Of a DNA stretch of 64,000 bases, positions 18,231 to 46,682 are shown in pieces (within the stretch, counting starts at the first letter, position 1; every line of letters begins with the position of its first letter). Under the pieces are notes generated by a model. The model was not told the DNA's origin, did no database searches, and saw only the letters and a program-made list of their open reading frames with translations. The stretch comes from Fredinandcohnia onubensis (GTDB lineage Bacteria > Bacillota > Bacilli > Bacillales > Bacillaceae_L). A program made the position numbers and the translations under genes. The DNA is taken from NCBI RefSeq assembly GCF_031181385.1, contig NZ_JAPSKV010000014.1, positions 1 through 64,000 of the forward strand, in the 5' to 3' direction.

Positions 18231-19013
18231 CTATTTTTCCCAATTCAAATTCCTTCCTAACAAATGATAAAGTCTCTCGTTATAATGTTTAAAGTAAGAA
18301 ATTAAATCCTGTCTTGTAGTATCATTTAGTTTTGGATATTTGTCTCTGAATTTATTAATAAATTCGAATCGATTTGGTTCCCAGATTGGTACATTTAGAA
18401 AAGTAAGTACTTCCTTATAGATTTGATTAGGGTCATTATAAAAGTCCTCACTATTGATAATTATAATCTGTTCTTGTGGAAATACATTCATCCACTTTTC
18501 AATTTTATTTATATAAATTCCTCTTTCTAAAAACCGATAACTCTCTAAATATGCCTTTCTATCCAATTTCTCATAATAATTTTTCGGTAAATTCTTCTCT
18601 TTTTCAATAAATTCTTCAAATGACGGTAAACGGCCATTAACAAAACAAGAACCATCTCTTGCTCCCATTTGATATTGAGAATATGCACGATCAACTGGGT
18701 TTCGCAAAAGGATAATCAACTTTACATTCGGCATACACTGAAACACTCTTTGAGGAGCTAAAGGATCATCAATATAATTAGGGGTTGCTTCTCCAGTTAT
18801 CACATTTTCCGTATTCAAAACTAACGAAGGAAATTGATCTCGATACCAATCTAACCCTTTTTCATAATGTTTGTTGAAGAAATACAATTCTTTTTCTTCA
18901 GCTGTAGCGATATTTGGGTGCCTCACTAAGTTAACATATAATGCACTCGTTCCACACTTTTGCTGACCAATAATTAAAAAGTCAGGCATTTTTAACTGTT
19001 TGCTGCTATCCAT
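18231..19013 (-). CDS. PAPS-dependent sulfotransferase (Sulfotransfer_1/NDST-like)
   Basis: 260 residues, probably cytosolic. The 5'-phosphosulfate-binding loop is GQQKCGTSAL (16-25), preceded by a beta-strand, and the 3'-phosphate site is LLRNPVDRAYSQYQ near residue 100; both are diagnostic for PAPS enzymes of the heparan-sulfate sulfotransferase group. Also conserved: KELYFFN and GEATPNYI. It transfers sulfate from PAPS to a hydroxyl or amino group, here probably on a glycan, since it is the last gene of an operon with two GT4 enzymes and begins right where the upstream gene stops. Confidence 0.88.
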   Translation of the reverse strand: MDSSKQLKMPDFLIIGQQKCGTSALYVNLVRHPNIATAEEKELYFFNKHYEKGLDWYRDQFPSLVLNTENVITGEATPNYIDDPLAPQRVFQCMPNVKLIILLRNPVDRAYSQYQMGARDGSCFVNGRLPSFEEFIEKEKNLPKNYYEKLDRKAYLESYRFLERGIYINKIEKWMNVFPQEQIIIINSEDFYNDPNQIYKEVLTFLNVPIWEPNRFEFINKFRDKYPKLNDTTRQDLISYFKHYNERLYHLLGRNLNWEK

Positions 19014-20459
19014 TTAATTTTCTCCCTTCGTTGTTATTTCTACAATTTTTTTCAACAATTGTAAATCTGGAAGACAATACGTATCTGGAATACGCTCCAT
19101 GATTTTCAAGCAAATCGGTTCATCAAAAGAATCCATAGTATCAAATAGAAAAATATCTTTAAAGGACTGAATCTGATGTTTGCTCTTTAAAGAGATCCTA
19201 TAATTACCCAGTACGGGGGATTCAACCATTACTTTTGGTTCAACCGACTCTTGAACTTGCAACTCATAATAAACATTCATTAACCGCTGATATAAAAGTT
19301 CAGGGGCCCATTGTTTTAATGCCATTTTTTGCGTGTTAGACCCTAATGTTTGACGAATTTTTTTATTTTTAATCAATATAAATAATTGGTCTGATAATTG
19401 TTTAGAGTTGTTTTTTTGAAAAAGAAACCCATTTTTGCCTGACTCAATCATCTCTGGTATACCGCCGGTTTCTGAAGCGCAAATGGCTTTCCCTGCTATT
19501 TGTGCTTCTATTATGGAAAAAGGCATATTATCTTGCAAAGTCGGCAGGACAACAATATCTATTTTTTGGAGAAGAGAAGGAACGTCATTGCGTGCACCCA
19601 AAAATTTTATGAACTTTTTCATTCCTTTCTTTTCAGCATATTTCTGAAAGTACTCCTTATCCGGACCGTCACCGATGATCCAGCATTCGAAATTTTTTCT
19701 CCGTTTTTTTAAATTCTCTAGGGCATCAAATAGAATAGGATGGCCTTTATACGAAACAAGACGCGAAATACAGCCAATGATTATTTTATTTTTAGTGGAG
19801 GGAACTGGCGGATCGGGTTCTGTTTTTAATTTATCTAAAAAGCTGAGAATATTCCTTGCACAGTAAGGGATGACAGAGATGTCAGACGGAATGTCAAAGT
19901 TGTTTTGGATCTCTCGTTTCATCCATTCGGTTGGTACGATTATTTTGTCTGCAGAGAGTAATCCGTTTAGCTCTTCTGCCATTTGGTACAGCCACCTATC
20001 TGTATCTTCGCCTTGAATTATTCCTAAATTTATCAATTCTTTCGTCATTTGCCCGTGAATTGTACAAATGAGCGGTATATGCTTAGGTTTTATTCTCCGG
20101 AAGATTCTTGTGGATATCACATCTTGTGTGTGAATGACGTCATATTGTGACAAATCAAGTAAAGAGGCAGTTAATTCAAACCGGTACCGGCCCAATTCTT
20201 TTTGAAAAATCCAGGAATCAAGATTTGGGAAATTAGTAGTGTAATAATTTGTTATACTTGGTGAGAGTATCGGATTTGTGATCGACTTTGCAATGGATTG
20301 ACCGGAATTAGTGATATATAGTTCCTCTAAGTTAGGTGATTGTCCGAGTACATCAACCTTATGTCCGTTTCGTTCCAATTCTTGTTGTAATGATTCTATA
20401 TATGTTCCAACACCGCCAGCCTGGGGTAGGAAGAAATAGGTCGCAATTAAAATCCTCAT
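19014..20459 (-). CDS. Glycosyltransferase family 4 with C-terminal extension
   Basis: 481 residues. The start YFFLPQAGGVGTYIESL is the GT4 acceptor-side glycine loop. The donor half has IGCISRLVSYKGHPILFDAL, IIGDGPDKEYFQKYA and the E-x7-E-like NMPFSIIEAQIAGKAICASETGGIPEM. About 90 extra residues follow the GT domain, of unknown role. It is a paralogue of the gene at 20780-22015 (shared TERGIPEM-like and HTQDVISTR motifs). It probably extends the same glycan that the downstream sulfotransferase modifies. Confidence 0.88.
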   Translation of the reverse strand: MRILIATYFFLPQAGGVGTYIESLQQELERNGHKVDVLGQSPNLEELYITNSGQSIAKSITNPILSPSITNYYTTNFPNLDSWIFQKELGRYRFELTASLLDLSQYDVIHTQDVISTRIFRRIKPKHIPLICTIHGQMTKELINLGIIQGEDTDRWLYQMAEELNGLLSADKIIVPTEWMKREIQNNFDIPSDISVIPYCARNILSFLDKLKTEPDPPVPSTKNKIIIGCISRLVSYKGHPILFDALENLKKRRKNFECWIIGDGPDKEYFQKYAEKKGMKKFIKFLGARNDVPSLLQKIDIVVLPTLQDNMPFSIIEAQIAGKAICASETGGIPEMIESGKNGFLFQKNNSKQLSDQLFILIKNKKIRQTLGSNTQKMALKQWAPELLYQRLMNVYYELQVQESVEPKVMVESPVLGNYRISLKSKHQIQSFKDIFLFDTMDSFDEPICLKIMERIPDTYCLPDLQLLKKIVEITTKGEN

Positions 20460-20502
20460 GAGATCAGTACCTCCTTTTGCTTGAATAATTTGATAAAGTT
20501 AA

Positions 20503-20775
20503 CTACTCTTTCTTGTTTGTTAAATAGGATTTTAACTCCTTATAAATATCAGGATCAGGAATCACGTAGTCTTCAGATAATGCGTTTCGTATTTGTTGCC
20601 ATTCGTTTGATTCATCTCCAATCAAATCTTTGGTTATGAACGTATTTTCTAGTTTTTGAGACTCACAGTTTTGATCATCAAGAGTTCCCTCATGCAAATT
20701 TGGTAGTTTATTTCTTCGTTTTCGTGTCTTTGAACTTTTTTTTCTATTCGAATTTATTTTTCGCTTCTTCCCCAT
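20503..20775 (-). CDS. Small hypothetical protein, basic N-terminus
   Basis: 90 residues from ATG 20775, with GGAGG 9 nt upstream. The first 30 residues are almost all Lys, Arg, Asn and Ser (MGKKRKINSNRKKSSKTRKR); the rest is acidic and helical. Similar Lys-rich small proteins recur in this window (41193, 43810), so a nucleic-acid- or coat-associated role is possible but unproven. It sits between two GT4 genes in one operon. I do not recognise the family. Confidence 0.6.
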   Translation of the reverse strand: MGKKRKINSNRKKSSKTRKRRNKLPNLHEGTLDDQNCESQKLENTFITKDLIGDESNEWQQIRNALSEDYVIPDPDIYKELKSYLTNKKE

Positions 20776-20779
20776 GTTG

Positions 20780-22015
20780 TCAATCCTCCGTAAATAGTCG
20801 GTAAATCGCAAGCGTCCGGTTTATCATTTTATCAATGGACCAATTATTCATGGCATGTTCTTTTGCCGCAGCAGAAAGCATGTTACTAATCGTCTTATTA
20901 TCTATTACCTTCTTTATATTCTGATATAGTAATTCACTTTCCCCCTTTGGCGAAATTAATCCCGACTTATCATGGATGACCATTTCCGGAATTCCGCCTG
21001 CATCAGTTGTAACGATTGGTTTTCCAGCAATTTGGGCCTCCATTAGAGCAAATGGATGATTATCCTGTATACTCGGCAAAACAACCAAGTCCATTTGTTT
21101 TAGTAATGCGGGCACATCATCTCTAGTACCTAAAAAGATGATGTGTTCTTCAATCCCCAAATATTTTGCGTACATTTTTAATTCCTTGCGTAAACTACCA
21201 TCTCCGATAAACCAGCAAATCCAGTCATTTCGCTGTTGCTTTACTTTTGCTAAGGCTTCTAGTAAGAATTTATGTCCTTTTACTCGATCCAATCTTGCTA
21301 GGCAACCGATTATTATATTGGCCTCGGGTGGAGCGGTCTGCGATTCCTCCTCCATCCTATTAATAAATTGCTTAATATCGATTCCGTACGGGATAACTTT
21401 TAAATGTTCGTCACTAATATTAAATTCTTTTTTTAACAGGTTTTTTAACCACAGCGTCGGTACAATTGTTATATCACTTGCAACAGCACCATAATGCTCT
21501 TCTGTGGCAAAATAGCGCGATATAAATGTTTGTCTCCATCGATCTATTTCAGATTCGGTTACAGCTTTTTTAACATGACGGATATACTCTAATGTATAGC
21601 AGCCATGGAGGGTTGAAATTAGTGGGGTGTCTTTTGGTTTTACCCGTGAAAGGGCTCTTGTAGAAATAACATCTTGAGTATGAATTAAATCGTATTTTTT
21701 TAAATCAAAATAGGCAGCAGCTGCTTCAAAACTATATCTTTCTGTTTCATGTTTTGCTATTAAATTCATTTCAGGATGATTGGATTTGAAAAATGGCTGT
21801 AAAATTTTCTGCACTGATTCCACAATAATTGTTTTATTTATGGAACGGCCGTCATTTACGATGTGGTATTTTTTCTCAATCGGATAATGACTTAAAATGT
21901 CCACTTCATAATCCATATTAATGAGAGCTTGATATAGTCCTAGAACGTAACTCCATACTCCTCCTGCCATAGGAAGAGGCCAGAATGTAGCTAATAAGAT
22001 CTTCATTGTCTCCAC
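20780..22015 (-). CDS. Glycosyltransferase family 4
   Basis: 411 residues, first gene of the operon running to 18231. N-terminal acceptor loop FWPLPMAGGVWSYVLGL, then HTQDVISTRALSRVKP, the donor domain start IIGCLARLDRVKGHKFLLEAL, IGDGSLRKEL, and NHPFALMEAQIAGKPIVTTDAGGIPEM with the paired Glu of GT4. Soluble, with no membrane segment. The donor sugar is unknown. The upstream region shows a sigma-K type -10. Confidence 0.88.
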   Translation of the reverse strand: METMKILLATFWPLPMAGGVWSYVLGLYQALINMDYEVDILSHYPIEKKYHIVNDGRSINKTIIVESVQKILQPFFKSNHPEMNLIAKHETERYSFEAAAAYFDLKKYDLIHTQDVISTRALSRVKPKDTPLISTLHGCYTLEYIRHVKKAVTESEIDRWRQTFISRYFATEEHYGAVASDITIVPTLWLKNLLKKEFNISDEHLKVIPYGIDIKQFINRMEEESQTAPPEANIIIGCLARLDRVKGHKFLLEALAKVKQQRNDWICWFIGDGSLRKELKMYAKYLGIEEHIIFLGTRDDVPALLKQMDLVVLPSIQDNHPFALMEAQIAGKPIVTTDAGGIPEMVIHDKSGLISPKGESELLYQNIKKVIDNKTISNMLSAAAKEHAMNNWSIDKMINRTLAIYRLFTED

Positions 22016-22041
22016 CCCAACGTTTTCTTTAGGATACTTAA

Positions 22042-24112: not shown

Positions 24113-25117
24113 TTATTTTTGTATTAACTCTTCCCTGTCATCTGTTTGTGGAGGCTCCTCCAACCACCCATGTTTAATCATAATATTGGCCCCGTCCTCA
24201 GCATACAATGAGATTTCTGGAATTAAAGAGGCATATTTTAATCCTAGATCTCTCCTAGGGCTAGCCGCCATGGCCATTCCAAAATTCCCAATACCCGCTG
24301 CAATCATTGCTGATACATGAAACATAATAAGTTTATCAGAGAAAACACTTGCATTACTATCCGTAACAGCTGAATCCCAGCTCATAGGAGCAGGAAGATC
24401 CTCTTTGATTAAAAAGTCACTAAAAAGCTCTATATATTTTTGAGAAAGTTTCTTTCCTCTTATTAAAAATTGTTTTACATCCTTACCTTTCGCGATCTGT
24501 GCAAATCCTGTCATTAATACCTTACCAATCGCATTGGTTTGTATATTTAAAAATAAATGACTAATTTCGACTGAAGTTAGGGCTCTCTTTTTTCCAACGA
24601 ATCCAGCCAGAAAATGCTGCTTCTCTACAAAATCAACCTTGTCAGGAATAGAAATATAAGGAGGTCTTACATAAGTCCCTTGTTTTAACATCATTTCACG
24701 TGTTTGATCCTGCAACTCAACCCCTAAATTTAATATACGCTTATGAAAAGCAACTACATCTGGACGTGTCAGAAGGCCAAGAGCCCCACTACTACCTGCC
24801 ATTCCTAGTATGGACATTTGTCTTAAATACATTAATACAAAAGTATCAGAAAAAAGTCTTGGAGCTTTCACATTTACATCTTGATCTGTAAATCCTAACG
24901 GGATCGGAAAGTCCTCTTTTTCAAAGATATCACGTGCGATTGCTATATTCTCTTTAGAAGCTTCCAATGTAAATTTAATAATTGGACGAGTCTCTTCATC
25001 CTCTACTTTTTCTAAAAAATATAAGTTGACACATACAGCTAAAGTATCATTAATGTATTGTGTCCATAAGCTCGACATTTCCGCAGCAGTTAAACGAATT
25101 TTGGATTTATCTTCCAT
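24113..25117 (-). CDS. DUF3231 family protein
   Basis: 334 residues made of two similar helical halves (ALGLLTRPDVVAFHKRIL in the first, GMAMAASPRRDLGLKYASL in the second). Each starts with a segment like LTAAEMSSLWTQYINDTLAV or LTSVEISHLFLNIQTNAIGK. This duplicated four-helix, ferritin-like pattern is that of the DUF3231 family, common and multi-copy in spore-forming Bacillaceae. No signal peptide. Its function is not established, although relatives are linked to spores. Confidence 0.8.
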   Translation of the reverse strand: MEDKSKIRLTAAEMSSLWTQYINDTLAVCVNLYFLEKVEDEETRPIIKFTLEASKENIAIARDIFEKEDFPIPLGFTDQDVNVKAPRLFSDTFVLMYLRQMSILGMAGSSGALGLLTRPDVVAFHKRILNLGVELQDQTREMMLKQGTYVRPPYISIPDKVDFVEKQHFLAGFVGKKRALTSVEISHLFLNIQTNAIGKVLMTGFAQIAKGKDVKQFLIRGKKLSQKYIELFSDFLIKEDLPAPMSWDSAVTDSNASVFSDKLIMFHVSAMIAAGIGNFGMAMAASPRRDLGLKYASLIPEISLYAEDGANIMIKHGWLEEPPQTDDREELIQK

Positions 25118-25323: not shown

Positions 25324-25539
25324 AGTATATGAATAATTCATAATATACATTCGTTTTGAGGGTTTGTCAATTAAATTCTAGTAAATTTATAAGGGTTATT
25401 ATTTTTTTGAGGTTTGATGGTATTTGATGGCCACTTCTTGCTATGAAAATATTAACATCGTAAAAAATGTAGATATATGTTATTATTGACATAAATTCAT
25501 TTTATTTGTATAAATATAATATCAAGGCAAAGTACAATT

Positions 25540-25697
25540 TAATAATCGCTGAATTCCCATTTTTGGGAAACGGGGGAACCAAAAACGTGCAAAAGGGCAC
25601 ACGGGGTGAATCCTTTTTTATAAAGGTAGGAGATACTCTTCATCCGAATCCGACAGCTAACCTCGTAAGCATTTGGAGAGAGCATTGTTGCGCAAAT
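25540..25697 (+). promoter_or_regulatory. c-di-AMP riboswitch (ydaO/yuaA class)
   Basis: The leader contains the class landmarks in order: GGGAAACGGGGGAACC (25565-25580), ACGGGGTGAATCC (25601-25613), a GTAGG segment, CCGAATCCGACAGCTAACC (25644-25662) and CTCGTAAGC. These form the two conserved ligand-binding halves of ydaO-type aptamers. A terminator follows at 25707-25736, then the symporter gene. In this class c-di-AMP binding favours termination (an OFF switch). Exact helix ends were not determined. Confidence 0.9.
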
Positions 25698-25824: not shown

Positions 25825-27054
25825 ATGTCATTAACTAAAAAGATTTTATTAGGTTTAGGTCTTGGTGCACTTGTAGGTCTTATCTTAAACTTAACGTCAC
25901 CTTCTATTTTTGAACTTGCGAATACTTGGATATTCGTTCCACTTGGTCAAATTTTCTTGAATTTAATTAAAATGCTTGTTGTTCCAATTGTCTTAGTTTC
26001 TATTACTCTAGGAGTTACAGGCCTTGGTGATCCAAAGAAGCTTGGAAGAATTGGTGCCAAAACGATAACTTATTTTTTAGCCACAACAACGATAGCGATT
26101 ACAATTGCGATCGCTCTTGCTTCCATTTTCAAGCCTGGTGCTGGTGGAGCCTTTGATACGCAAGGGGCAACTTATGAAGGGGCAACTGAGGCTCCTCCAT
26201 TCATGGAAACTTTAATTGGAATTATCCCGACAAATCCATTTACGTCAATGACTGATGGAAATATGCTTCAAATTATTGCATTTGCTATTTTTATAGGTTT
26301 TGCTCTTACCGTGTTAGGCGAAAAAACAAAAGGTATTGTAAATTTATTTGAACAAGCAAATGAAGTGTTAATGTATCTTGTTAATCTTGTAATGAAGACG
26401 GCTCCATACGGTACGTTTGGATTAATAGCGACTGCTATTGGTGGCCAAGGTTATGCAGCAATTAAAGCAATGCTTGCTTACTTCTTAATTGTACTTGCCG
26501 CTCTACTTGTTCACGCAGCCATTACGTATGGTGGCACGATTGCATTATTGGCAAAACGAAACCCAGTTGAGTTTTTCAAAGGTTTTGCACCTGCGATGAC
26601 AGTTGCTTTTAGTACGTCAAGTAGTAGTGCTACACTTCCTATATCAATGGAAACTGCACAAAAAAATCTAAAGGTTCCAGAACCAATTAGTAGCTTTGTT
26701 CAACCATTAGGTGCAACTATCAATATGGACGGTACAGCTATTATGCAAGGTGTTGCCACCATTTTCATTGCACAGGTATATGGATTTGAACTAACTTTTA
26801 CTCAAATTATTATGGTTATCTTAACGGCTGTGCTTGCAAGTGTAGGTACCGCAGGTGTTCCTGGTGTTGGTTTAATCATGCTTGCAATGGTTCTAAATCA
26901 AGTTGGTTTACCGCCAGAAGGTATCGGTTTAATTATTGGTATTGATCGATTACTTGATATGACACGTACAGCCATCAATATCACAGGTGATGCTGCATGT
27001 GCAGTATATGTTGCAGAATCTGAAAAGAAACATACGGATGAAGCAGCTGCTTAA
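25825..27054 (+). CDS. Dicarboxylate/glutamate:cation symporter (GltP/DctA family)
   Basis: 409 residues. Family landmarks: LIKMLVVPIVLVSITLGV, the Ser-rich re-entrant loop AFSTSSSSATLP, GATINMDGTA with the NMDGT signature, and GIDRLLDMTRTAINITGD. The NMDGT and Arg-containing TM8 favour acidic substrates (glutamate, aspartate or C4-dicarboxylates). ATG 25825 has GGAGG upstream. The c-di-AMP riboswitch and terminator in its leader imply that uptake is shut off when c-di-AMP is high, tying it to osmotic and potassium control. Confidence 0.92.
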   Translation: MSLTKKILLGLGLGALVGLILNLTSPSIFELANTWIFVPLGQIFLNLIKMLVVPIVLVSITLGVTGLGDPKKLGRIGAKTITYFLATTTIAITIAIALASIFKPGAGGAFDTQGATYEGATEAPPFMETLIGIIPTNPFTSMTDGNMLQIIAFAIFIGFALTVLGEKTKGIVNLFEQANEVLMYLVNLVMKTAPYGTFGLIATAIGGQGYAAIKAMLAYFLIVLAALLVHAAITYGGTIALLAKRNPVEFFKGFAPAMTVAFSTSSSSATLPISMETAQKNLKVPEPISSFVQPLGATINMDGTAIMQGVATIFIAQVYGFELTFTQIIMVILTAVLASVGTAGVPGVGLIMLAMVLNQVGLPPEGIGLIIGIDRLLDMTRTAINITGDAACAVYVAESEKKHTDEAAA

Positions 27055-33329: not shown

Positions 33330-34472
33330 TTAATGGTTGCCCTTAGCCATACCTTTCATTAAAATTTCCACCACCTCAGGACGACTAAATTCCTTTGGAG
33401 GTATTTGACCATTTCGTAGCATTTCTCTTACCTTAGTTCCTGAAAGTATCAGATGGTGTTCAGAAGAATGGGGACACGTTTTGTAAGAGGCCATACTTAA
33501 ACATTTTGTGCAATAAAAACTATGCTCGAAAAACAAGGGTTGTATCCCTAATTCTTCCTCAGGAAATTGCAAAAATATTCTTTGAGAATCATATGTTCCG
33601 TAAAAATTCCCTATTCCCGCATGATCTCGCCCTACGATAAAATGAGTACATCCATAATTTTTCCGAACAATCGCATGGAAAATGGCTTCCCTTGGCCCCG
33701 CATATCTCATCGCAGCAGTGAATACGGAAAGATGTACTCTATCCTTTGGATAATATAAACTTATTAATTTGAGATAGCTTTCCATTCTAACATTTGCTGG
33801 AATATCATCAGCCTTCGTTTCCCCTACCAATGGATTTAAAAATAAACCATCAACGGTTTCCAAGGCACACTTTTGAATATATTCATGTGCTCGATGGATA
33901 GGATTTCGTGTTTGGAAACCAACGATCGTTTTCCACCCTCTCTTTAAGAACTCTTCCCTTGTTTGTATCGGATCTAAATAATAAGAGTGGGCATGTTCTT
34001 TTTGAGGCCTTTTTACTAGAGTAATAGGTCCTGCTAAATATACATCTCCTCTATTGAAGAGCTTTCTTACCCCAGGATGAATACTGTCCACCGTTTGAAA
34101 TACTTTCATTGCCTCCAGTTTTTTGTCTGGTTTATATTTTTCTTCAAGCTGTAAAATGCCATATACTGTACCTTTATATATAAGCTTAACAACATCTCCT
34201 ATTTGAAGTTGATTTGCAATTTCCTCATTAACAGGTAATGTTATCGGAATACTCCATATACAACCATTTGCAAGCCTTATATCATCTAAAACACAATTAT
34301 AATCTTGCCACCCTAAGAAACCTGTTAGAGGACTATATGCGCCATTTGCGATCAACTCAAGGTCAGATAATGCGATTGAGTCAATCTCGACCTCTTGATG
34401 GTAGATAGAATAATTTAGATCAAAATTTATACAATTTATTAATGTTCCACCATGAGGTATACTTGTATTCAT
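33330..34472 (-). CDS. sat: ATP sulfurylase (sulfate adenylyltransferase)
   Basis: About 380 residues. Makes APS from ATP and sulfate. Active-site motifs: [10 protein letters not shown] (with the two catalytic His), [10 protein letters not shown] and GRDHAG. A Cys-rich segment near the end (YCTKCLSM ... KTCPH) resembles the metal-binding insert of some bacterial Sat proteins. ATG 34472 is 8 nt after AAGGAG; the GTG at 34481 overlaps that site. The gene stands apart from any cysH/cysI reduction genes, so it may feed PAPS synthesis (CysC at 46071). Confidence 0.93.
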
Positions 34473-34989
34473 TATTATCACTCCTTGTGTAACATAGCGA
34501 GAAACCAGTTTCTTTCAAAAAAAACAACTCGTTTTCACATGAGTCATTCCCCTAGTAGCTGCATATTTTTTCCTATTTTGATTTCTCTAATCTTTTGTCC
34601 TTAATTCTTTTATTTCGTTTTGCTTTTTTCCTCTTTACCTTCTATTAAGTAGCTTTTTTCTTTTCCCCAGACATCTATCCACCCCTTCCCTTCCGGTTAA
34701 GATAATATATTCATGTTTTAAAAAAGATGGACTAGACATTAAAATCATTTTCAATAAAATAAACATTTTCATTACTACATTTCATTGAGCTGAAAAGCTA
34801 TCTTGAAATAACCTTGAGTTGCTGTCTCCTCCACCAAATTTGATTACAAAATAGTGAATTTTGTCCATTCACTTCAATTACATTCTGCATATGATGTTTT
34901 ACACTTTTAAAATCTTCCAATCAAAATAGGGGACATACTATTTGTAAATAATTTTGTTTTAAAAGTGAATAATTTATGGGAGTGTATAT
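34473..34989. other. Divergent intergenic region, sat / TauE-like permease
   Basis: About 520 bp of AT-rich sequence between two divergent sulfur genes. It must hold both promoters. I looked for CymR-type and S-box elements and saw none that I can support. Confidence 0.3.
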
Positions 34990-35763
34990 ATGCATATAGA
35001 ATTTATTATTATCGGTTTCCTAGTAGGAGGATTAGTGGGATTGACAGGGGTAGGCGGTGCTTCTATACTAACACCTTTTTTAATCTTTTTTGGTATTCAG
35101 CCTACGGTAGCAATAGGGACTGATTTTGCTTATAACATAATTACAAAATTATTTGGTTCAATTCAACATATTAGACAAAAGACAGTGAACTTCCAATTAT
35201 TGAAATATTTAGCTATCGGTAGTATACCTGGAGGAGTAATTGCAAATATGGTTTTTTACTTCTTTCTCTCTGATTACTACAACGAAAGGTTAGTTTTATT
35301 TCTGCTCGGATTGGTTCTAATTGTTGTATCCGCAATTGCTTTAATTCAACTAATATTTGTTAAAAGCATAAGTAATCAGTGGAAAAATAAATCCCCAAAG
35401 GAAAAACGGATTATCACCATTATTTCAGGGTTAATAATAGGAGCTATTGTCGGAATTACTTCTGTGGGAGCAGGAAGTTTATTTGCTCTTTTTATTTTGT
35501 ACTTCTATAATTTAAGATCTTCTGAAGTAGTAGGAACTGATGTTGTTCACGCTTTTTTTCTTGTACTATTTACGGGAACCCTAATGGCCATATATGGTCA
35601 TATCGATTATAACTTAACTATTAATCTATTATGCGGATCGATTCCGGGAGCGATTATTGGAAGTAGACTTACAGAAAAAGTCCCATCATTATTTTTACGA
35701 ATTATGATTGTCTTCATTATTTTAGTCAGTGGTGTTAAACTTTTTATGCATATTTGGAGTTAA
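34990..35763 (+). CDS. TauE/SafE-family permease, candidate sulfate importer
   Basis: 257 residues with eight predicted helices and the duplicated family motif: GLVGLTGVGGASILTPFLI in the first half, GAIVGITSVGAGSLFALFILY in the second. TauE/SafE proteins move sulfite, sulfonates or sulfate. The position divergent from sat makes sulfate uptake for PAPS synthesis the likely role here. No clear terminator follows; 35764-35979 holds no gene I can support. Confidence 0.85.
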   Translation: MHIEFIIIGFLVGGLVGLTGVGGASILTPFLIFFGIQPTVAIGTDFAYNIITKLFGSIQHIRQKTVNFQLLKYLAIGSIPGGVIANMVFYFFLSDYYNERLVLFLLGLVLIVVSAIALIQLIFVKSISNQWKNKSPKEKRIITIISGLIIGAIVGITSVGAGSLFALFILYFYNLRSSEVVGTDVVHAFFLVLFTGTLMAIYGHIDYNLTINLLCGSIPGAIIGSRLTEKVPSLFLRIMIVFIILVSGVKLFMHIWS

Positions 35764-35979: not shown

Positions 35980-36723
35980 TTATAACCCTAGACCTTCTTT
36001 AAACGTCTTCATTTCCTTTTTCTTCTTTTCATCCATTGCTTGAATTTTTTCTTCTAGTCGTTTTTTTGCATATTCATATAATTCAATATCCAACTGGTTT
36101 TTAGCTGCAATTTTATTCCAAACTTCTTTCGAAACTTTATTTTTACGTGGGCGGTTTGGAGCTGCATTCCTAGTCCTGTAATTTATATTTCCCCACTTAA
36201 ATTCTTCCTTCATGAGGAATAGAGATTCTCCAAATGATTCTGTAATACCTACAATTGAGAAGTATTCATCCATATTTTTTTTCGCAGTTTCCAGACTCAA
36301 TGGTTCTTTGCCACAAAAAAAGCGTGTTTGTATATTGGGCTCAGCTTGTAAATTAAAATCGTCGCTATCAATAAACTCCTCAAGTGTTAAATTTTTGACC
36401 TTTTCGTGCCATCGATTCGTCGGGACACGTATAATATGGTAATAAGCAGAAATAAATCGATCAACAGGATCTCTCATCATTGAAATATAGGTAAATGGTT
36501 TCGGAAAATATTCATGTGTGCCAAATAAGAAATGTCCATATATAAACTTTAAACTATTCCTAAATTCCTCTGGGAGTTCCAATACTTTCTCTTCCATAAA
36601 AGGGCATCTAAATGTTTCGGATAACTCATATTGTCTCTTAATTACACCTCTTAGTGACTGACCACCAGTTTTAGGTATATGCATAAATAATAAAAACTTG
36701 TTTTTTTTATTTTTTTTTGTCAT
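35980..36723 (-). CDS. Sulfotransferase, Sulfotransfer_2 type
   Basis: 247 residues. The PAPS 5'-phosphosulfate loop is HIPKTGGQSL (15-24) and the 3'-phosphate site MMRDPVDRFISAYYH (about 81-95); both are characteristic of the carbohydrate (chondroitin/HS 2-O) group. A Lys/Glu-rich C-terminal tail follows. It is the last gene of the operon 38444-35980. The acceptor is unknown but probably a glycan, given the upstream GT-A gene. Confidence 0.88.
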   Translation of the reverse strand: MTKKNKKNKFLLFMHIPKTGGQSLRGVIKRQYELSETFRCPFMEEKVLELPEEFRNSLKFIYGHFLFGTHEYFPKPFTYISMMRDPVDRFISAYYHIIRVPTNRWHEKVKNLTLEEFIDSDDFNLQAEPNIQTRFFCGKEPLSLETAKKNMDEYFSIVGITESFGESLFLMKEEFKWGNINYRTRNAAPNRPRKNKVSKEVWNKIAAKNQLDIELYEYAKKRLEEKIQAMDEKKKKEMKTFKEGLGL

Positions 36724-36744: not shown

Positions 36745-37566
36745 TTATAGCGGATACAGCTTCAATGCATGAGGAGCATGACGAGTAATTTCTTCAAGAA
36801 TCGAATCTTCCATTCGATAATCATAAATTTTATTTCGATTCCTATTGTCCAATTCAAGTTCTCTTTCATATGGCTTACCTGTTAACTCTTCCAATATAGA
36901 AGGACTTTTTACAATGTCTTCGTATTTTAATAGATGAATCTGTTTCTCTAGCTCCATATATCTTTGGCAAAATAAGTCATAGATACGGACCTGTTTAGTT
37001 AAAAGCTTATCATTCGATTCAGTAATTTCTCTAAGTTCATTCCATACCCCCTCACCCGCCGGCAGCCTTCCCTGACTAATTGGCAAATTCAAGGATAACC
37101 AAGACAAAATAGTAGGAACTGGATGTCTCATTACAGCAATAATAGAGAATTTATCTGTTTTTATTAATTCTGGAAGAATACTTGTATAATGTGCATTATG
37201 CTTCATACCTAATGTGAAATTCTCATCTTTTACTGGAAACGTAATACTCCGTTTTAACTTTGTCTTGTTTTTTTGCTTTGGTCCCTTTCTTCGTGAACCA
37301 AAATAATTTGTAACTGGTGTTCCATCTTTATTCCGTTTATCTATAATAGGTTCCTGATTCACTATTTTTTCCCTAATTTCCTTGAAATCTGTAGTTACTA
37401 ACTTTACTAGCTTTTTAGCTTTCTCCTCTTCAAAAAACCATTTTGCCTGCCAATTTGGTTCACTTAGACAAACGGTGTCAGATAAACTGTCAATCAAAGC
37501 GGCTGTTAGAGTTGTCCCACCCCGTGGAATTCCAGTTACAATTAGGTCTTTTTTAATTTGACTCAA
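36745..37566 (-). CDS. P-loop sulfotransferase-like protein
   Basis: 273 residues. The PAPS-type P-loop is VTGIPRGGTTLTAALID (10-26), with a second site VMRHPVPTILSW near residue 145 and a late KYEDIV. These fit the sulfotransferase fold, but the central region is divergent. TTG start at 37566 inside the upstream stop (TTGA overlap), so translation is coupled to the GT-A gene. The short linker to the next sulfotransferase is 21 bp. Confidence 0.75.
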   Translation of the reverse strand: MSQIKKDLIVTGIPRGGTTLTAALIDSLSDTVCLSEPNWQAKWFFEEEKAKKLVKLVTTDFKEIREKIVNQEPIIDKRNKDGTPVTNYFGSRRKGPKQKNKTKLKRSITFPVKDENFTLGMKHNAHYTSILPELIKTDKFSIIAVMRHPVPTILSWLSLNLPISQGRLPAGEGVWNELREITESNDKLLTKQVRIYDLFCQRYMELEKQIHLLKYEDIVKSPSILEELTGKPYERELELDNRNRNKIYDYRMEDSILEEITRHAPHALKLYPL

Positions 37567-38444
37567 CGCCTTTTCCCCTTTCTTTTTTTTCTTTTTTTAA
37601 TCATCTTATTCACCTTTTTAATATAAGAATTGGGGACTTTATAATTAAATCTTGTCTTCATTAGTAAGCCGTTTTCCTGCACATATTTGTGATAATGAAA
37701 GATATACGGATGCATCTTATTAGCAGATAATTTTGGTTTCATTTTAACCGGAGTGGAAAAGTTCATTTCTACTGGAAATGTTTTAAATGGAATGTTTTCT
37801 GCTACTAAAGCAAGAGTTAAGGAATGCTGATCTGCAAAATATTTACGCTTAGCTATATCGCCCATTTTATGATAATTATCCATCAAGAGGAGAGCATATT
37901 TTCCCCATGTTTTACGCAATATGCTAACATATTGTTTCGGTATAGCAAGGACACCACTATTAAAATAAGGAACAGTCATTAATTGTTTAATTCCAGTTGT
38001 TTCGACTCGTTCTTCAGGACATTTCAAATCAAAATATGAAAATAGATATTCCCATTGCTCGATGGTTAGAGGGTCGTTATTTACTGGTTTAGCTTGGAAA
38101 TACTCTAAAGAGAGTTCTTCATAGAAATCACGAACGACTGCTGTATCACAATCTAGGGCAATCAAGATATCAAAATCATCTTCGATTTCAAGCATCCGTA
38201 ATTTGTTGCAATGGGGAGATCTTTGATCAAAGGGCTGTACGATTTGCACCTCTACACCCATTTTCTCAAGCTGTGATTTAATATTTTTGTCTATTGCCCC
38301 AACAAAATTTGCCACTAATTTTGCATTTGCTATTTGTCCCCCAAACTCTTTAACCGTTTGAAACAGTGTAAATATTTTCTCATGATATTCAGGTCTATTC
38401 TCCCCTACACATGTGATTAAAAGCCTATATGAATTCTTCTTCAT
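37563..38444 (-). CDS. GT-A type nucleotide-sugar transferase
   Basis: 293 residues. A GT-A Rossmann-like half ends in the D-x-D motif IALDCDTAVV near residue 97, needed for metal and UDP-sugar binding. Further on are PYFNSGVLAIPK and FADQHSLTLALV, seen in glycosyltransferase family 8/32-like enzymes. The C-terminus is a dense Lys/Arg tail (KKRKKRKGKRR), which may tether it to membrane or polymer. First gene of a three-gene operon with two sulfotransferases. Confidence 0.75.
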   Translation of the reverse strand: MKKNSYRLLITCVGENRPEYHEKIFTLFQTVKEFGGQIANAKLVANFVGAIDKNIKSQLEKMGVEVQIVQPFDQRSPHCNKLRMLEIEDDFDILIALDCDTAVVRDFYEELSLEYFQAKPVNNDPLTIEQWEYLFSYFDLKCPEERVETTGIKQLMTVPYFNSGVLAIPKQYVSILRKTWGKYALLLMDNYHKMGDIAKRKYFADQHSLTLALVAENIPFKTFPVEMNFSTPVKMKPKLSANKMHPYIFHYHKYVQENGLLMKTRFNYKVPNSYIKKVNKMIKKRKKRKGKRR

Positions 38445-38632: not shown

Positions 38633-39001
38633 CTAGTCATTCATATTGTAAAAGTTCCCTTTCTTTAAGAAAAACAAACCAGCAAGCTCTCGGCAATCCA
38701 CAGTGAAGGACCCTTTTACTGAAGTTACTCCTACTGATGAATCAATATCTTCCTTTTTAAATTGGAATGTCGCACAACATGTGTGAGGATCGAAATATTC
38801 AAAAGTAAAAACGGTTGGATCCATTCCATCAACTGAAATCGGCTGTGAAGCACCTTTAGTTAGAATTAATAATTTTTTGTTATGTTCATCATCCATATTA
38901 AGTTGTCTTAGTAAATCACATACACAACCTTTACATTTTGAAACACTCTCAGTTCTACATGCATGACAGCTACATCCATAATAATTTCTTGAACTACCCA
39001 T
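38633..39001 (-). CDS. CotY/CotZ-like Cys-rich spore coat or exosporium protein (short form)
   Basis: 122 residues with nine Cys. The head CSCHACRTESVSKCKGCVCDLL recalls the CVCDA start of CotZ. The middle TCCATFQF and end FTVDCRELAGLFFL line up with the CATLTVL and FCIEVDLSCFCAI segments of the true CotZ at 57540. CotY/CotZ proteins form disulfide-linked lattices in crust and exosporium. Likely function: the same type of lattice. It is divergent from gtaB. Confidence 0.72.
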   Translation of the reverse strand: MGSSRNYYGCSCHACRTESVSKCKGCVCDLLRQLNMDDEHNKKLLILTKGASQPISVDGMDPTVFTFEYFDPHTCCATFQFKKEDIDSSVGVTSVKGSFTVDCRELAGLFFLKKGNFYNMND

Positions 39002-39282: not shown

Positions 39283-40086
39283 TTGATAAAAAAAGCAGTA
39301 ATACCAGCAGCAGGTTACGGTACTCGTAATTTGCCTATCACCAAGGTCATTCCTAAAGAGATGTTCCCAATAAACGGAAAACCAGCCATTCACTATATTG
39401 TAGAAGAAGCAGTCGCCTCAGGTATAGAAGAAATATTAATTATCGTTTCACGTTCAAAAAATGCAATAATCGACTACTTTGATGACTCCCCAGAACTTGA
39501 AGCGTTCTTGAAATCAAAAAATAAGCAGCATTTGCTACAGAATGCACAGATACCAAAAGTCCATATTCAATTTGTTAGACAGTCCAGAGCAAATGGTCTT
39601 GGTGATGCCATTAGTCTTGCAAAACGTTTTGTAGGCAACGATCCATTTGCCGTGTTACTACCAGATGACCTCATTTTCGGAGAAGAAAAAGCAGGTATTT
39701 CAGAGCTAATAGACCTTTATAAACAACATAAAGAAAACGTGATTGCTCTAAAGGAAGTTCATGAAGATGAATTGAAAAATTATGGGGTTATAAAAGGTGA
39801 AGAAATGGAAGAATCTTTGTATTTACTAGAGGATATTGTAGAAAAACCGGTAAGTTCCCCTCCCTCGAATCTTGCTGTTATTGGAAGATATATTCTAAGT
39901 CCTTCTATTTTTGAATATTTGGACCAAGTAATCCCTGGTGCAGGGGGCGAATATCAACTTACAGATGGAATTAAATTAATGCTTCAACATGATAAATGTT
40001 ATGGAAAGGTACTCAAAGGCCAACGTTATGATATTGGAAAGATGGATGAATATCTCCAGCTTATAAATCGTTTTGGTTCTATTTAA
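39283..40086 (+). CDS. gtaB: UTP-glucose-1-phosphate uridylyltransferase
   Basis: 267 residues. Makes UDP-glucose from UTP and glucose-1-phosphate. The N-terminal nucleotide site is PAAGYGTRNLPITKVIPKEMFPI; later come RQSRANGLGDAI, LLPDDLIF, EKPVSS and YDIGKMDEY. TTG start at 39283 with AGAGGTGA upstream. It is slightly shorter than typical GtaB (about 290), resembling YngB. It supplies precursor for the surface sugars made around it. Confidence 0.9.
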   Translation: MIKKAVIPAAGYGTRNLPITKVIPKEMFPINGKPAIHYIVEEAVASGIEEILIIVSRSKNAIIDYFDDSPELEAFLKSKNKQHLLQNAQIPKVHIQFVRQSRANGLGDAISLAKRFVGNDPFAVLLPDDLIFGEEKAGISELIDLYKQHKENVIALKEVHEDELKNYGVIKGEEMEESLYLLEDIVEKPVSSPPSNLAVIGRYILSPSIFEYLDQVIPGAGGEYQLTDGIKLMLQHDKCYGKVLKGQRYDIGKMDEYLQLINRFGSI

Positions 40087-42730: not shown

Positions 42731-43597
42731 TTACAGATGCCCTTTTCTAACTAAATAATCAGTTAAAGAATTTCTCCATTGTTTCATCTGATAAACGTTA
42801 TTCAATTTAGAATTATCTAATACACTATATAATGGTCTCTTGGCCCGTGTTTGATATGTTGTACTAGGTACCGGAGTAACGTTGACATTCATATATAATT
42901 GTTCAAAAATCTCCGCTGCAAATTCATACCAACTGCACTGGCCACCTCCTGAACAATGGTATACCCCAAAATCCTTTATATTTTGTTCGAGAAATTTTAC
43001 AATTACAATCGCAATTTCCAATGTGTGGGTCGGCGACATTATTTGGTCATCCACCACAGTTAGTTTCTTACCTTGCTTTCCAAGCTGAATCAGCGTTTCA
43101 ATAAAATTATTCCCTTTTCCACTTAGACCAGCTAAACCAAATAAAGAGGACACCCGAAAAATGAAAAATTTATTATGGTAATTCTTAATAAAATGTTCTC
43201 CCGCTAGTTTACTAATCCCGTACGTATTTATCGGGACTGTACAATCATCTTCTACGTAAGGTTGGTTTTTTCCACCGTCAAATACATAATCCGTTGAGAA
43301 ATGAATGAATAATTTATCATGAAGATTACAAAACTTTGCCATTTCCCTAACAGCTACCCCATTCACAATAAATGATTTTAAAGGAAATTCTTCACATTCA
43401 TCTGTATTATGATATGAGGTGCAATTTATAAGGACGTCAAAATCTATTTGCTTAAGAAACTGGAAAATATCATCTTTTTCAAAATCAATATCTTTACGAT
43501 ATATATTTATGAGTTTGTATTGGGGATAAAATGAGAAGATATATTGGATATCTGTTCCAAGCTGTCCATTAGCACCTAAAAGAAGTATCTTTTTCAT
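42731..43597 (-). CDS. rmlD: dTDP-4-dehydrorhamnose reductase
   Basis: 288 residues, extended SDR. NADP-binding GANGQLGTD (8-16), FSTDYVFDGGKNQPY, the catalytic YGISKLAGE and the later VVDDQIMSPTHT are RmlD landmarks. It reduces the last intermediate to dTDP-L-rhamnose. The other rhamnose genes (rmlA, B, C) are absent from this window, so it is an orphan or the pathway is split. Rhamnose occurs in exosporium glycans of the B. cereus group. Confidence 0.88.
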   Translation of the reverse strand: MKKILLLGANGQLGTDIQYIFSFYPQYKLINIYRKDIDFEKDDIFQFLKQIDFDVLINCTSYHNTDECEEFPLKSFIVNGVAVREMAKFCNLHDKLFIHFSTDYVFDGGKNQPYVEDDCTVPINTYGISKLAGEHFIKNYHNKFFIFRVSSLFGLAGLSGKGNNFIETLIQLGKQGKKLTVVDDQIMSPTHTLEIAIVIVKFLEQNIKDFGVYHCSGGGQCSWYEFAAEIFEQLYMNVNVTPVPSTTYQTRAKRPLYSVLDNSKLNNVYQMKQWRNSLTDYLVRKGHL

Positions 43598-43781: not shown

Positions 43782-43813
43782 AAAAAAAAGTAGACCCTCT
43801 TAGCAGAGCCTAC
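43782..43813 (-). terminator. Terminator of the basic small gene
   Basis: GTAGACCCTC and GAGCCTAC pair with bulges; eight A before it give a T-run on the minus strand. The stem includes the stop codon. Confidence 0.75.
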
Positions 43814-43932: not shown

Positions 43933-43970
43933 TAACGATTCCTCCCGTTTTTTATTGTTCTTCTTATTCA

Positions 43971-43998
43971 TAGTTTATGTTATTTCGTTACGTTCCGT
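43971..43998 (-). promoter_or_regulatory. Sigma-K-like promoter of the basic small gene
   Basis: On the minus strand AC, 17 nt, CATAAACTA, 39 bp before the start codon. Confidence 0.6.
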
Positions 43999-44022
43999 TC
44001 ACTTTTACCAAAAATTAGGCTT

Positions 44023-44376
44023 TTAATCTAGTAATTTTGTATTGATCGTTTCGATTAATGCTGCAAGCCCAGCAATTGCTAAAACCGTAATAATAAATTC
44101 TGAACCAATCGGCCATAATATCCAACCCATATATAAGAATCCAGAACTCCATATCCCTGTACACCAATAACAGCTAATTAATTCACCTATCCATGCCCGT
44201 AATCCTTTCCCCTTGATTTCAACATAATTCGTAGTCATACCTTCAGAATCAGTCTCTTCATATTCATGTATAAATGGCTTACGGATAAATGCTGTTATGT
44301 TGTCAAAGACAAGTAAGCGTGTTAAGCGAAAGCTTGCTAAACCAAATAGAGCGAACTGTAACCACCCCTCAAACAT
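44023..44376 (-). CDS. DUF1360 membrane protein
   Basis: 117 residues with an N-terminal hydrophobic segment, LASFRLTRLLVFDNI, the conserved ISCYWCTGIW motif, and two helices at the end. This is the DUF1360 family, common in spore formers and often called sporulation-related. CATAGAATA, a sigma-K type -10, is at 44415-44423 on the same strand, although no AC is at the right distance. Confidence 0.85.
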   Translation of the reverse strand: MFEGWLQFALFGLASFRLTRLLVFDNITAFIRKPFIHEYEETDSEGMTTNYVEIKGKGLRAWIGELISCYWCTGIWSSGFLYMGWILWPIGSEFIITVLAIAGLAALIETINTKLLD

Positions 44377-44566
44377 GTCGATTCCTCATTTCCTTGTTTA
44401 TTCATCATTCGTTATATTCTATGCTTTCATCATTTGAAGAGGAACTTTTATAAATCGCTTGCTTTTTAGGTAAGCATGTATTTTTAGACAACATGGATAA
44501 TCGTACAAGCATGAAAGATTTCAGTCTCATAAAATATCATAACTTCCTTAAAGTGAGGTGAAACTG

Positions 44567-44731
44567 ATGGCAAATAACAAAAGAAAAAGAAATCGAAACA
44601 GAAAGAAAGAGATTGTGGTGAAATGTAATTGTGGCTTCAAGCACGACTTCAATCATTGTCGCTCTTTATGTAGACCATTCCATTGTCGACCAATTTGCGG
44701 ACTCCGCCATGACTTCAACCACTTTTGCTAA
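44567..44731 (+). CDS. Small His/Cys-rich basic coat-like protein
   Basis: 54 residues. The head is basic (MANNKRKRNRNRKKEIVVK), then a Cys/His-rich part in two similar halves: CNCGFKHDFNHCRSLCR and CRPICGLRHDFNHFC. Start ATG 44567 after AGTGAGGTG. CATAAAATA lies at 44528. The repeated H-D-F-N-H-x-C would suit metal binding or crosslinking in the coat. Confidence 0.7.
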   Translation: MANNKRKRNRNRKKEIVVKCNCGFKHDFNHCRSLCRPFHCRPICGLRHDFNHFC

Positions 44732-44787
44732 TTCAAGTTGTGCGAACAAGAAATTTCTTGTTCGCACTTCAGGCATTTGTACCTTTC

Positions 44788-44812
44788 ACAAATCCTACAT
44801 CTACATAAACTA
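44788..44812 (+). promoter_or_regulatory. Sigma-K-like promoter of the His-rich gene pair
   Basis: AC at 44788, 14 nt, CATAAACTA (44804-44812), 34 bp before the TTG at 44846. Confidence 0.45.
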
Positions 44813-44845
44813 ATATATAAAGCTATTAGTTTAGGAGGAGATGAA

Positions 44846-45364
44846 TTGTCACATCCTTTTGATGAACATTGTAATTGCCATGAAGACGATTTTGATCATC
44901 AACATTCTTGTGGATGTCAAAACCTTAATCACTCTCACGATCATGATTTTTGCGATTGCAAGCAAAATGACAGGTTTCATAGACATGACCATGATTTCTG
45001 TGAGTGCGAGAAAAATGACCAGATTCATAGACATGACCATGGTCGTTTCACCAATTCTAGAGATGAAAATAAAGAAGACAGGTTTCATACCACAAATATA
45101 AACCGACGTCATTTTAACCAAATTCGCCATTCAGCTAGTAATCGTAATATTAGTAGAAAACGTGGAAAAATGACACCACTACGAAAACGAAATGTAAACA
45201 ATCGGTTGGATAACCGAATTGACGACTTGCGTAAAAAACATTTTAGAGAAATCCTGGACCTAGACGAATTGCGAGATCTACGAGATTTAAATGATTTACA
45301 TCGCCTTATCAAACTTAATAGAAAAGACGATGACGATCAAAAGAAGATCATTATCATATTTTAA
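44846..45364 (+). CDS. His/Asp/Cys-rich spore-surface protein
   Basis: 172 residues from TTG 44846 with AGGAGG upstream; upstream in-frame starts have no ribosome site. The first half repeats H-D-H-D-F-C-x-C units (HDHDFCDCKQNDRFHRHDHDFCECEKNDQIHRHDH), a strong metal-binding composition. The second half is basic, with a run of D-L-R/D-L-N units (ELRDLRDLNDLHRL) and an acidic/basic end. No known family. It is followed 17 bp later by another His-rich gene. Confidence 0.72.
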   Translation: MSHPFDEHCNCHEDDFDHQHSCGCQNLNHSHDHDFCDCKQNDRFHRHDHDFCECEKNDQIHRHDHGRFTNSRDENKEDRFHTTNINRRHFNQIRHSASNRNISRKRGKMTPLRKRNVNNRLDNRIDDLRKKHFREILDLDELRDLRDLNDLHRLIKLNRKDDDDQKKIIIIF

Positions 45365-45381
45365 AGGAGGATTAGAACAAT

Positions 45382-46023
45382 ATGAGTCATTTTAATTGTG
45401 ATAAATGTGGTAAAATAAGACGTGGCCAATTCCATCACAATGACCACTTTGATCACTTTGACCATCATAGACATGGTGATTTTCACCACCATGATAATTT
45501 CCATAATTGTGACTGTGATCATTGTCGTAACAAACACCGCTCCCATCAATGTGATTGCGATGACTGTCGCAACAAGCACCGGCATGATTTTATCTGTGAT
45601 CGTTTTATTTGTGACGATGATTTTCGCTTACGACTTGGTGGATTACAGGGTGGACTGAATTTCCGCTTACGACAACTTATTGGTTGTAAGGTAAATCTGG
45701 ACCTAGAAGGCGGAAAAAAAATTCTAGCAAATATCTGCTTCGTGGGGTCCGATTTTATTGAAGTTAATGTTCTTGAACAAAAAAGACCTGACGAACAGGA
45801 AAAAAATGAGAACAATGAAAATCGTGAGGACAATGAAAATCGTGAGGACAACAAAGAACCAAAAAATCGCAAACACCAACGAAACAATCAAAATAAGAGA
45901 AAAAAGAGAAAACAAAATAACCGGGATAAAGCATTAATTGTCCCGTTTCAAGGAATTAAATCAGTTGAACTAAAGGACGATTGTGATTGTGGACCAGATG
46001 TGGAATGTAACTGCCGCCATTAA
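45382..46023 (+). CDS. His-rich coat protein with CotB/LSm-like barrel
   Basis: 213 residues. Residues 1-75 are His/Asp/Cys-rich (DHFDHHRHGDFHHHDNFH, then C-D-C-D repeats). About residues 90-130 form small-barrel strands: LIGCKVNLDLEGGKKILANICFVGSDFIEVNV. A polar insert with two E-N-R-E-D-N repeats and a Lys/Asn stretch splits the barrel, and its last strand ALIVPFQGIKSVEL comes at about 186-199. The barrel type is seen in CotB and in several other proteins here. It ends with a Cys/Asp tail. Likely metal-rich coat or exosporium protein. Confidence 0.75.
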   Translation: MSHFNCDKCGKIRRGQFHHNDHFDHFDHHRHGDFHHHDNFHNCDCDHCRNKHRSHQCDCDDCRNKHRHDFICDRFICDDDFRLRLGGLQGGLNFRLRQLIGCKVNLDLEGGKKILANICFVGSDFIEVNVLEQKRPDEQEKNENNENREDNENREDNKEPKNRKHQRNNQNKRKKRKQNNRDKALIVPFQGIKSVELKDDCDCGPDVECNCRH

Positions 46024-46035
46024 TCACCCCAGTAA

Positions 46036-46072
46036 CGAAGAGACACGGGATCATCCCGTGTCTCTTTGTTTT
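46036..46072. terminator. Bidirectional terminator between the coat gene and cysC
   Basis: AAGAGACACGGGA pairs perfectly with TCCCGTGTCTCTT around a 3-nt loop. Plus strand ends TGTTTTATTT; the genes on both sides converge on it. Confidence 0.9.
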
Positions 46073-46682
46073 ATTTAAGGTTTAGTCTTCCTTTGATAAA
46101 TTGAAATACCTGGTTTGAGGACCCTGATAAAGAAGAATTAACTGTATCCACCACTATTTCGGGGGACTCCGGTTCTTCATATGGTTGGGAAATTCCAGTA
46201 AAGTTCTGAATCTCGCCCGCTCTTGCCTTTTTATAGAGTCCCTTGGGATCACGTGCCTCACATTCGTTCAACGGGCATTTAACGTAAACCTCAATAAACT
46301 CATCTTCTTCGAAAATATTTCTCGCATTAGCCCTGTCTTCAGCGTATGGGGAAATAACGGCCGCTAGTACTACGACTCCTGCATCAACGAATAATTTTCC
46401 TACTTCTGCAATTCTACGAATATTCTCCTTCCGATCCTCTGCACTAAACCCAAGATTGTTATTAATTCCATGTCTAATATTATCCCCATCTAACAAGTAT
46501 GAGCGTATACCTTCTGAATATAATAATTTTTCTACTGCATTAGCAAGTGTTGATTTCCCTGATCCGGAAAGACCAGTGAACCAAATGATAAAGCTTTTAT
46601 GGTTATTTAACGATTGTCGATCTTCTTTGGTGATAGACCCTTTATGCCAGACAATATGCTCACTAGATTGTTTTGATTCCAT
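46071..46682 (-). CDS. cysC: Adenylylsulfate (APS) kinase
   Basis: 203 residues from ATG 46682; the 20 residues upstream in frame are not needed for the family. P-loop GLSGSGKST (37-45), [17 protein letters not shown] (APS site), [11 protein letters not shown], and [18 protein letters not shown] with YEEPESPE are all classic. It phosphorylates APS to PAPS, the sulfate donor. With sat (33330) it completes PAPS synthesis, and three sulfotransferases in this window can use the product. Confidence 0.95.

Follow-up and report, generated by a model that had tools for sequence, protein, structure and literature searches.

A candidate PAPS-dependent sulfation system for a surface glycan, probably of the spore, in Fredinandcohnia onubensis

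The first 64,000 nucleotides of contig NZ_JAPSKV010000014.1 of Fredinandcohnia onubensis (assembly GCF_031181385.1), referred to here as the window, carry genes predicted to activate sulfate to 3'-phosphoadenosine-5'-phosphosulfate (PAPS) and to transfer it to a glycan. They comprise the ATP sulfurylase gene sat, the adenosine-5'-phosphosulfate (APS) kinase gene cysC, a gene for a TauE-like permease and three sulfotransferase genes, designated ST1, ST2 and ST3, which lie in two islands together with glycosyltransferase and sugar genes (Table 1). A preliminary description of this DNA had placed three sulfotransferase-like genes at 18231, 35980 and 36745, each in an operon with a glycosyltransferase, and had recognised the ATP sulfurylase, the APS kinase and the permease nearby. 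The open reading frames and Pfam matches confirmed all of these genes, and the two operons were found as follows. A GT4 glycosyltransferase gene directly upstream abuts ST1. In the other operon ST3 overlaps the gene at 37563-38444 (GTA) by 4 bases and is followed, after a 21-base gap, by ST2. The GTA protein gave no family match in the profile search, and its predicted model has a GT-A fold resembling glycogenin and LARGE1. This implies that the ST3/ST2 operon also includes a glycosyltransferase.

All three window sulfotransferases passed the curated Pfam cut-offs (ST1, Sulfotransfer_1, 1.3e-18; ST2, Sulfotransfer_2, 3.8e-12; ST3, Sulfotransfer_1, 4.1e-8) and have the sulfotransferase fold, for ST3 as judged from a predicted model. 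They are relatives of three different subfamilies. When aligned with 1nst and 1zrh, ST1 displayed the PAPS-binding stretches with a glutamate-bearing stretch between them, which was read in the light of the known roles of catalytic residues in sulfotransferases. The ST3 model was closest to tyrosylprotein sulfotransferases (TPST) and then to other sulfotransferases, and its sequence profile matched TPST weakly (E 0.12); both ST3 motif stretches are retained in all five aligned sequences, the window ST3 included. By domain and PAPS-binding motifs ST1, ST2 and ST3 are PAPS-type sulfotransferases, and sulfate transfer is their predicted activity.

The window cysC is the sole APS kinase match in the genome (4.26 Mb, 39 contigs, completeness 100, contamination 3.28). 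The absence of cysH and sulfite reductase genes, noted in the preliminary description for the neighbourhood, extends to the whole genome: neither the PAPS/APS reductase family (PF01507), for which a control search was positive in 14 of 14 named genomes, nor the sulfite reductase domain (PF01077, NIR_SIR) was matched anywhere in it. The second of these is a weak discriminator, because 6 of 8 congeners give just one short PF01077 match (about 1e-17 to 1e-18). All 8 congeners examined have cysC together with a strong cysH match, and the three sulfotransferase families were matched in none of the 8. On this evidence no path from PAPS to cysteine is visible in the genome, and cysteine biosynthesis was rejected as the function of the two activation genes sat and cysC. 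Riboswitch control of the two genes was rejected as well. An Rfam scan at the gathering threshold detected no riboswitch at sat or cysC and only one tRNA and a cyclic di-AMP (c-di-AMP) riboswitch elsewhere; the latter (96 bits) is at window 25537-25687, upstream of a gene at 25825 that resembles a symporter gene by eye. A second sat-like gene, encoding 573 amino acids, is present on contig 29 (L009:1107-2828); at least six congeners have counterparts of 573-578 amino acids. As the genome contains no second APS kinase match, the C-terminal part of this protein is not an APS kinase. The TauE-like permease is probably a sulfate importer. In genome G017 a 594-amino-acid permease of the CitMHS/Na-sulfate type is encoded between sat and cysC, which would support such a role for the window protein.

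The contig measures 112 kb and, outside two stretches, is collinear with congener G002, most proteins being 80-98% identical; the lowest identities in the collinear part are 73-75%, with one paralog match at 59%, and a few genes outside the islands, e.g. 24113-25117 and 69856-70404, have no G002 match. This collinearity makes it unlikely that the contig is a contaminant. Island 1 (13153-22015) contains a GT4 gene, a sugar dehydrogenase gene, two epimerase genes, ST1 and two further GT4 genes; at its place G002 has two small genes in about 1.4 kb. Island 2 (32561 to about 65058) contains sat, tauE, ST2, ST3, GTA, sugar genes, cysC, the spore coat genes CotZ and CotO, and two MnxG genes; G002 has a different gene set at this site, several members of which look like spore-surface proteins by eye. 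Nearby, G002 has genes for a sugar dehydrogenase and epimerases together with one resembling GT4c, but none for a sulfotransferase. The comparison covered a 220-kb stretch of G002, and island genes may exist elsewhere in that genome. Within island 2 the Cys-rich protein at 38633-39001 was rejected as a CotZ since it gave no family match, and two neighbouring proteins rich in His and Asp, encoded in the interval from the sugar genes to cysC (window 44738-46023), are, by eye, possible metal-binding proteins of the spore surface.

Table 1. Predicted genes of the two islands discussed in the text, in window coordinates
Feature	Coordinates	Strand	Remarks
GT4 glycosyltransferase GT4a	13645..14715	-	sigma-K-like site at -55
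NDP-sugar dehydrogenase, uronic-acid type	14934..16241	+	sigma-K-like site at -62
NAD-dependent sugar epimerase/dehydratase	16238..17221	+	island 1
NAD-dependent sugar epimerase/dehydratase	17223..18134	+	island 1
ST1, PAPS sulfotransferase like heparan NDST/3-OST	18231..19013	-	Pfam and alignment
GT4 glycosyltransferase	19014..20459	-	directly upstream of ST1
GT4 glycosyltransferase GT4c	20780..22015	-	first gene of presumed ST1 operon
ATP sulfurylase, sat	33330..34481	-	Pfam 1.6e-97; single gene outside the sulfotransferase operons
TauE-like permease	34990..35763	+	Pfam TauE 3.3e-45; homolog in Lederbergia citrea cluster
ST2, sulfotransferase like heparan 6-O/2-O enzymes	35980..36723	-	Sulfotransfer_2
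ST3, sulfotransferase	36745..37566	-	few close relatives found; predicted model
GTA, glycosyltransferase of GT-A fold, GT8-like	37563..38444	-	predicted model; overlaps ST3
Cys-rich protein, 122 amino acids	38633..39001	-	upstream of ST2/ST3 operon; CotZ-like by eye only
Sugar-1-phosphate nucleotidyltransferase	39283..40086	+	family match (NTP_transferase)
RmlD-type sugar reductase	42731..43597	-	sigma-K-like site at -129
APS kinase, cysC	46071..46742	-	Pfam 2e-71; single gene outside the sulfotransferase operons; sigma-K-like site at -163
CotZ-related protein	47079..47591	+	NF040827 1.7e-4, below cut-off; divergent from cysC
CotZ spore coat protein	57540..57992	+	island 2; sigma-K-like site at -75
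CotO spore coat protein	58034..58522	-	island 2

The origin of the activation genes was examined with approximately unbiased (AU) tests, which were run after the cysC/sat tree had been inspected. Placement of the window cysC in one clade with the cysH-linked copies of four congeners was rejected (p 0.015), and with it the possibility that this gene is a relocated copy of the one common in the genus. A clade with all 10 cysH-linked copies of the set was also rejected (p 0.006), and one with the accessory copies of G103, L. citrea and G024 was compatible with the data (p 0.18). For sat the same three groupings were all compatible (p 0.13, 0.063 and 0.23).

A counterpart of the window system was encountered when the GTA protein was searched against 396 genomes of the order and matched in 5, including the window genome. 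In L. citrea FJAT-49754 (G327; loci L058/L038) the genes PHP-sat-cysC-tauE-ST1-ST2-GTA-ST3 follow each other within about 8 kb. All eight are shared with the window contig, where they are spread over two islands instead of forming a single tight cluster. The L. citrea cluster differs further in its flanks, which hold four YheC/D ATP-grasp genes and an alginate-lyase-domain gene besides glycosyltransferase genes and a sugar dehydrogenase gene. YheC/D proteins are associated with the spore coat in Bacillus subtilis. The alginate-lyase-domain protein (997 amino acids, L038:16715-19708) is a hint of a uronic-acid polymer. In Oceanobacillus arenosus CAU 1183 (G317) homologs of cysC, sat, GTA and ST3 occur together with a further Sulfotransfer_2 gene. 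Scanning the genome collection with two short peptide patterns of ST3, an approach that may leave out the window genome and misses relatives lacking these patterns, gave 4 loci with ST3 relatives, 2 of them in metagenome-assembled genomes of proteobacteria. The latter two (L060:3451-4248 and L061:6428-7276; 42% and 40% identity) follow a gene that was judged by eye to encode a probable glycosyltransferase. Homologs of GT4a adjoin an accessory cysC in G017, G023, G088 and G112. G017 (L035) carries sat/cysC in two sets, one cysC of which adjoins homologs of window GT4 proteins; neither a cysH match nor a recognised sulfotransferase was obtained there, and it possibly possesses a sulfotransferase of an unrecognised family.

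Linkage of sulfotransferase and PAPS genes was assessed in 149 relatives, in which related genomes were counted separately and are thus not phylogenetically independent. Sulfotransferase matches below the curated cut-offs, e.g. in G048 (PF00685) and G104 (PF03567), were dropped, and weak cysC (9 genomes) and weak cysH (6 genomes) matches were scored as absent. A sulfotransferase over the cut-off was present in 30 genomes, each of which has a strong cysC, and in none of the 34 genomes without one (Fisher p 1.5e-4). Among cysC genomes it was found in 7 of the 8 that lack a strong cysH, as compared with 23 of the 107 that have one (p 3e-4; 4 of 5 when counted by genus). The sulfotransferase gene was at most 30 kb from cysC or sat in 19 of the 30 genomes, where 1.6 would be expected from random placement in 4 Mb and 9 was the maximum in 200,000 simulations. 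Together with the missing reductase match and the L. citrea cluster, this linkage makes the prediction of a dedicated PAPS-dependent sulfation system well supported. PAPS synthesis, sulfotransferase and glycosyltransferase genes stand in one region of the window contig, an arrangement that recurs in relatives.

Several observations link this system to the spore. CotZ and CotO are encoded beside the sulfation genes within island 2. The clusters of G023, G127 and G088 each adjoin a gene for a morphogenetic spore coat protein of the BMQ_0737 family (NF052457, over the cut-off), which is regarded as one of the outermost proteins of the B. megaterium spore (PMC4656864). This family was present in 24 of 34 chosen genomes, 30 of which were the sulfotransferase genomes, and one member compared with the PDB gave no match. 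In 14 of the 22 sulfotransferase genomes that carry both genes, distributed over 8 genera, the two were at most 20 kb apart, with 0.67 expected for the same random placement and a maximum of 6 in 200,000 simulations; two matches below the cut-off in G100 were left out of these distances. Proximity to BMQ_0737 was observed for 7 of 19 accessory cysC genes and 0 of 18 cysH-linked ones (p 0.005).

Sites resembling those of sigma-K, defined as AC, 14-17 bases and CATANNNTA after the sigma-K consensus, preceded 7 of 26 island leaders as compared with 2 of 38 core leaders (p 0.019); a first scan of hand-chosen starts had given 6/18 in the islands and 1/10 in the controls. Such sites were found before cysC, the sugar dehydrogenase gene, GT4a and RmlD, and also before CotZ and the operon upstream of MnxG, which are plausible positive controls. 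This would be compatible with expression of these genes in the mother cell. In 16 stretches with accessory clusters of other genomes the count was 15 of 123 (3.6 expected from shuffles), and at cysH-operon loci of congeners 2 of 31 (0.85 expected). Two comparisons were made post hoc, after the hits had been seen: the G002 stretch divided into islands and core (6/21 versus 3/107, p 6e-4) and accessory loci versus G002 core (p 0.007).

It seems probable from these data that a surface glycan, most likely one of the spore's outer layer, is made and sulfated by the products of the two islands. Sulfate would enter the cell, probably via the TauE-like permease, and would be converted by Sat and CysC into PAPS, from which ST1, ST2 and ST3 would move it onto a polysaccharide that probably contains uronic acid. 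The neighbouring GT4 and GT-A glycosyltransferases would assemble this polysaccharide from sugars that the dehydrogenase, epimerases, nucleotidyltransferase and RmlD encoded close by would supply. The preliminary description had proposed sulfation of a surface or spore glycan; the sulfation part of that proposal has been strengthened as described above, and the spore part is supported by gene context.

Several points weigh against this interpretation. The evidence comes from sequence and gene context, and the statistics treat related genomes as independent and assume random placement. In 11 of the 30 sulfotransferase genomes no sulfotransferase gene lies within 30 kb of cysC or sat, and in 8 of the 22 none lies within 20 kb of BMQ_0737. 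G017 has cysC without cysH and yet no recognised sulfotransferase, and the sat tree gave no decision (congener grouping, p 0.13). Among the 34 genomes searched, BMQ_0737 was unmatched in the window genome, L. citrea and O. arenosus, so that the spore link of the window system rests on CotZ, CotO, YheC/D and position. Neither sulfotransferase operon has a sigma-K-like site in front of it, nor do sat and tauE; for cysC and RmlD the site is far from the start codon, and the frequency in clusters of other genomes (15/123) did not differ significantly from that in the whole G002 stretch (9/128, p 0.12).

The promoter results bear directly on the foremost alternative, in which the same system sulfates a vegetative capsule or exopolysaccharide and the coat genes are neighbours because both kinds of genes gather in variable islands. 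The sulfotransferase operons and sat, which have no sigma-K-like site, would fit this, as would the PAPS and sulfotransferase genes reported from capsule clusters of Vibrio and Cobetia. It is nevertheless unlikely in view of the frequent proximity of BMQ_0737 to sulfotransferase genes but not to cysH-linked cysC, of the sigma-K-like sites that do occur in the islands, and of the YheC/D genes around the L. citrea cluster. Moreover, no capsule export gene was recognised in either island, though no systematic search for one was made. From gene context a spore-surface glycan is thus the likeliest target, rather than a vegetative capsule. The resemblance of the ST3 model to TPST raises the further possibility that at least this enzyme sulfates protein tyrosines, e.g. 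of coat proteins, and not sugar. This is improbable, since a shared fold says nothing of the acceptor, the TPST profile matched poorly, ST3 overlaps a predicted glycosyltransferase gene and its proteobacterial homologs follow a probable one as well. Finally, in B. subtilis sat and cysC are used for cysteine and a draft genome can hide genes, but the idea that the window sat and cysC serve sulfur assimilation only, with sulfotransferases that are incidental or live on minor amounts of PAPS, is very hard to reconcile with the missing PF01507 and PF01077 matches, the separation of the window cysC from the cysH-linked copies of congeners, and the clustering of sat, cysC and sulfotransferase genes in L. 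citrea.

A broader proposition, to which we give even chances, is that sulfated outer-layer glycans are recurrent and overlooked in spores of Bacillales, that an accessory module of PAPS, sulfotransferase and glycosyltransferase genes was gained repeatedly beside spore-coat morphogenetic genes, and that in the window genome sulfate activation became wholly devoted to this module once the route to cysteine had been lost. If so, many Bacillales would have spores with a polyanionic, heparin-like coat. The preliminary description had gone further in suggesting that a sulfated polyanion beside a manganese-oxidising exosporium could collect Mn(II). The oxidase is real: 52178-55834 encodes a full-length relative of MnxG (PDB 9bxa, 2068 bits), and window 47642-55834 carries two tandem full-length MnxG-type multicopper oxidases that are 87% identical. 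MnxG was not matched at E 1e-50 in the 8 congeners examined, and the 20 kb inspected at the L. citrea locus gave no match to it. At E 1e-50 it was present in 26 of the 149 genomes, 7 of which belong to the 30 with a sulfotransferase (p 0.24). As this co-occurrence is no more than chance, the link between manganese oxidation and sulfation is unsupported and the collecting role stays a guess.

The sulfation chemistry proposed here is known, in a spore-former setting for which no report was found: among the titles and abstract beginnings listed from the open-licence literature, none concerned sulfate on Bacillus spores or Bacillaceae polysaccharides. The sugar enzymes of the islands are similar in kind to those of the spore crust glycan genes of B. 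subtilis. The latter (ytdA-ytcABC, sps, yfn and cge; PMC7439481) are likewise spore-surface glycan genes, and differ in that sulfation is unmentioned in the accessible text, where 'sulf' occurs solely in the phenol-sulfuric assay. According to published abstracts, adhesion and hydrophilicity in B. subtilis are influenced by the glycans on the surface of the spore. In the capsule clusters of Vibrio sp. KMM 8419 and Cobetia marina KMM 1449 (PMC11641403, PMC11766843) PAPS-synthesis, sulfotransferase, glycosyltransferase and sugar-nucleotide genes are combined in one region, with second copies of PAPS genes in the former and a sulfate permease in the latter; one of these papers regards the joint presence of PAPS genes and sulfotransferases in a polysaccharide cluster as a hallmark of making sulfated polysaccharides. 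These are capsules of Gram-negative bacteria with ABC export and cysD/cysN/cysC, whereas the window belongs to a spore former in which sat and cysC are single-chain, the genome gives no match to a PAPS reductase, and spore-coat genes are part of the islands. The sulfotransferases themselves belong to the same Pfam families as those of heparan sulfate synthesis (NDST/3-OST for ST1, 6-OST/2-OST for ST2) and align with them over the PAPS-binding and active-site stretches; they differ from them in being bacterial and single-domain. This points to bacterial relatives of heparan-type sulfotransferases that could be of use in making sulfated polysaccharides.

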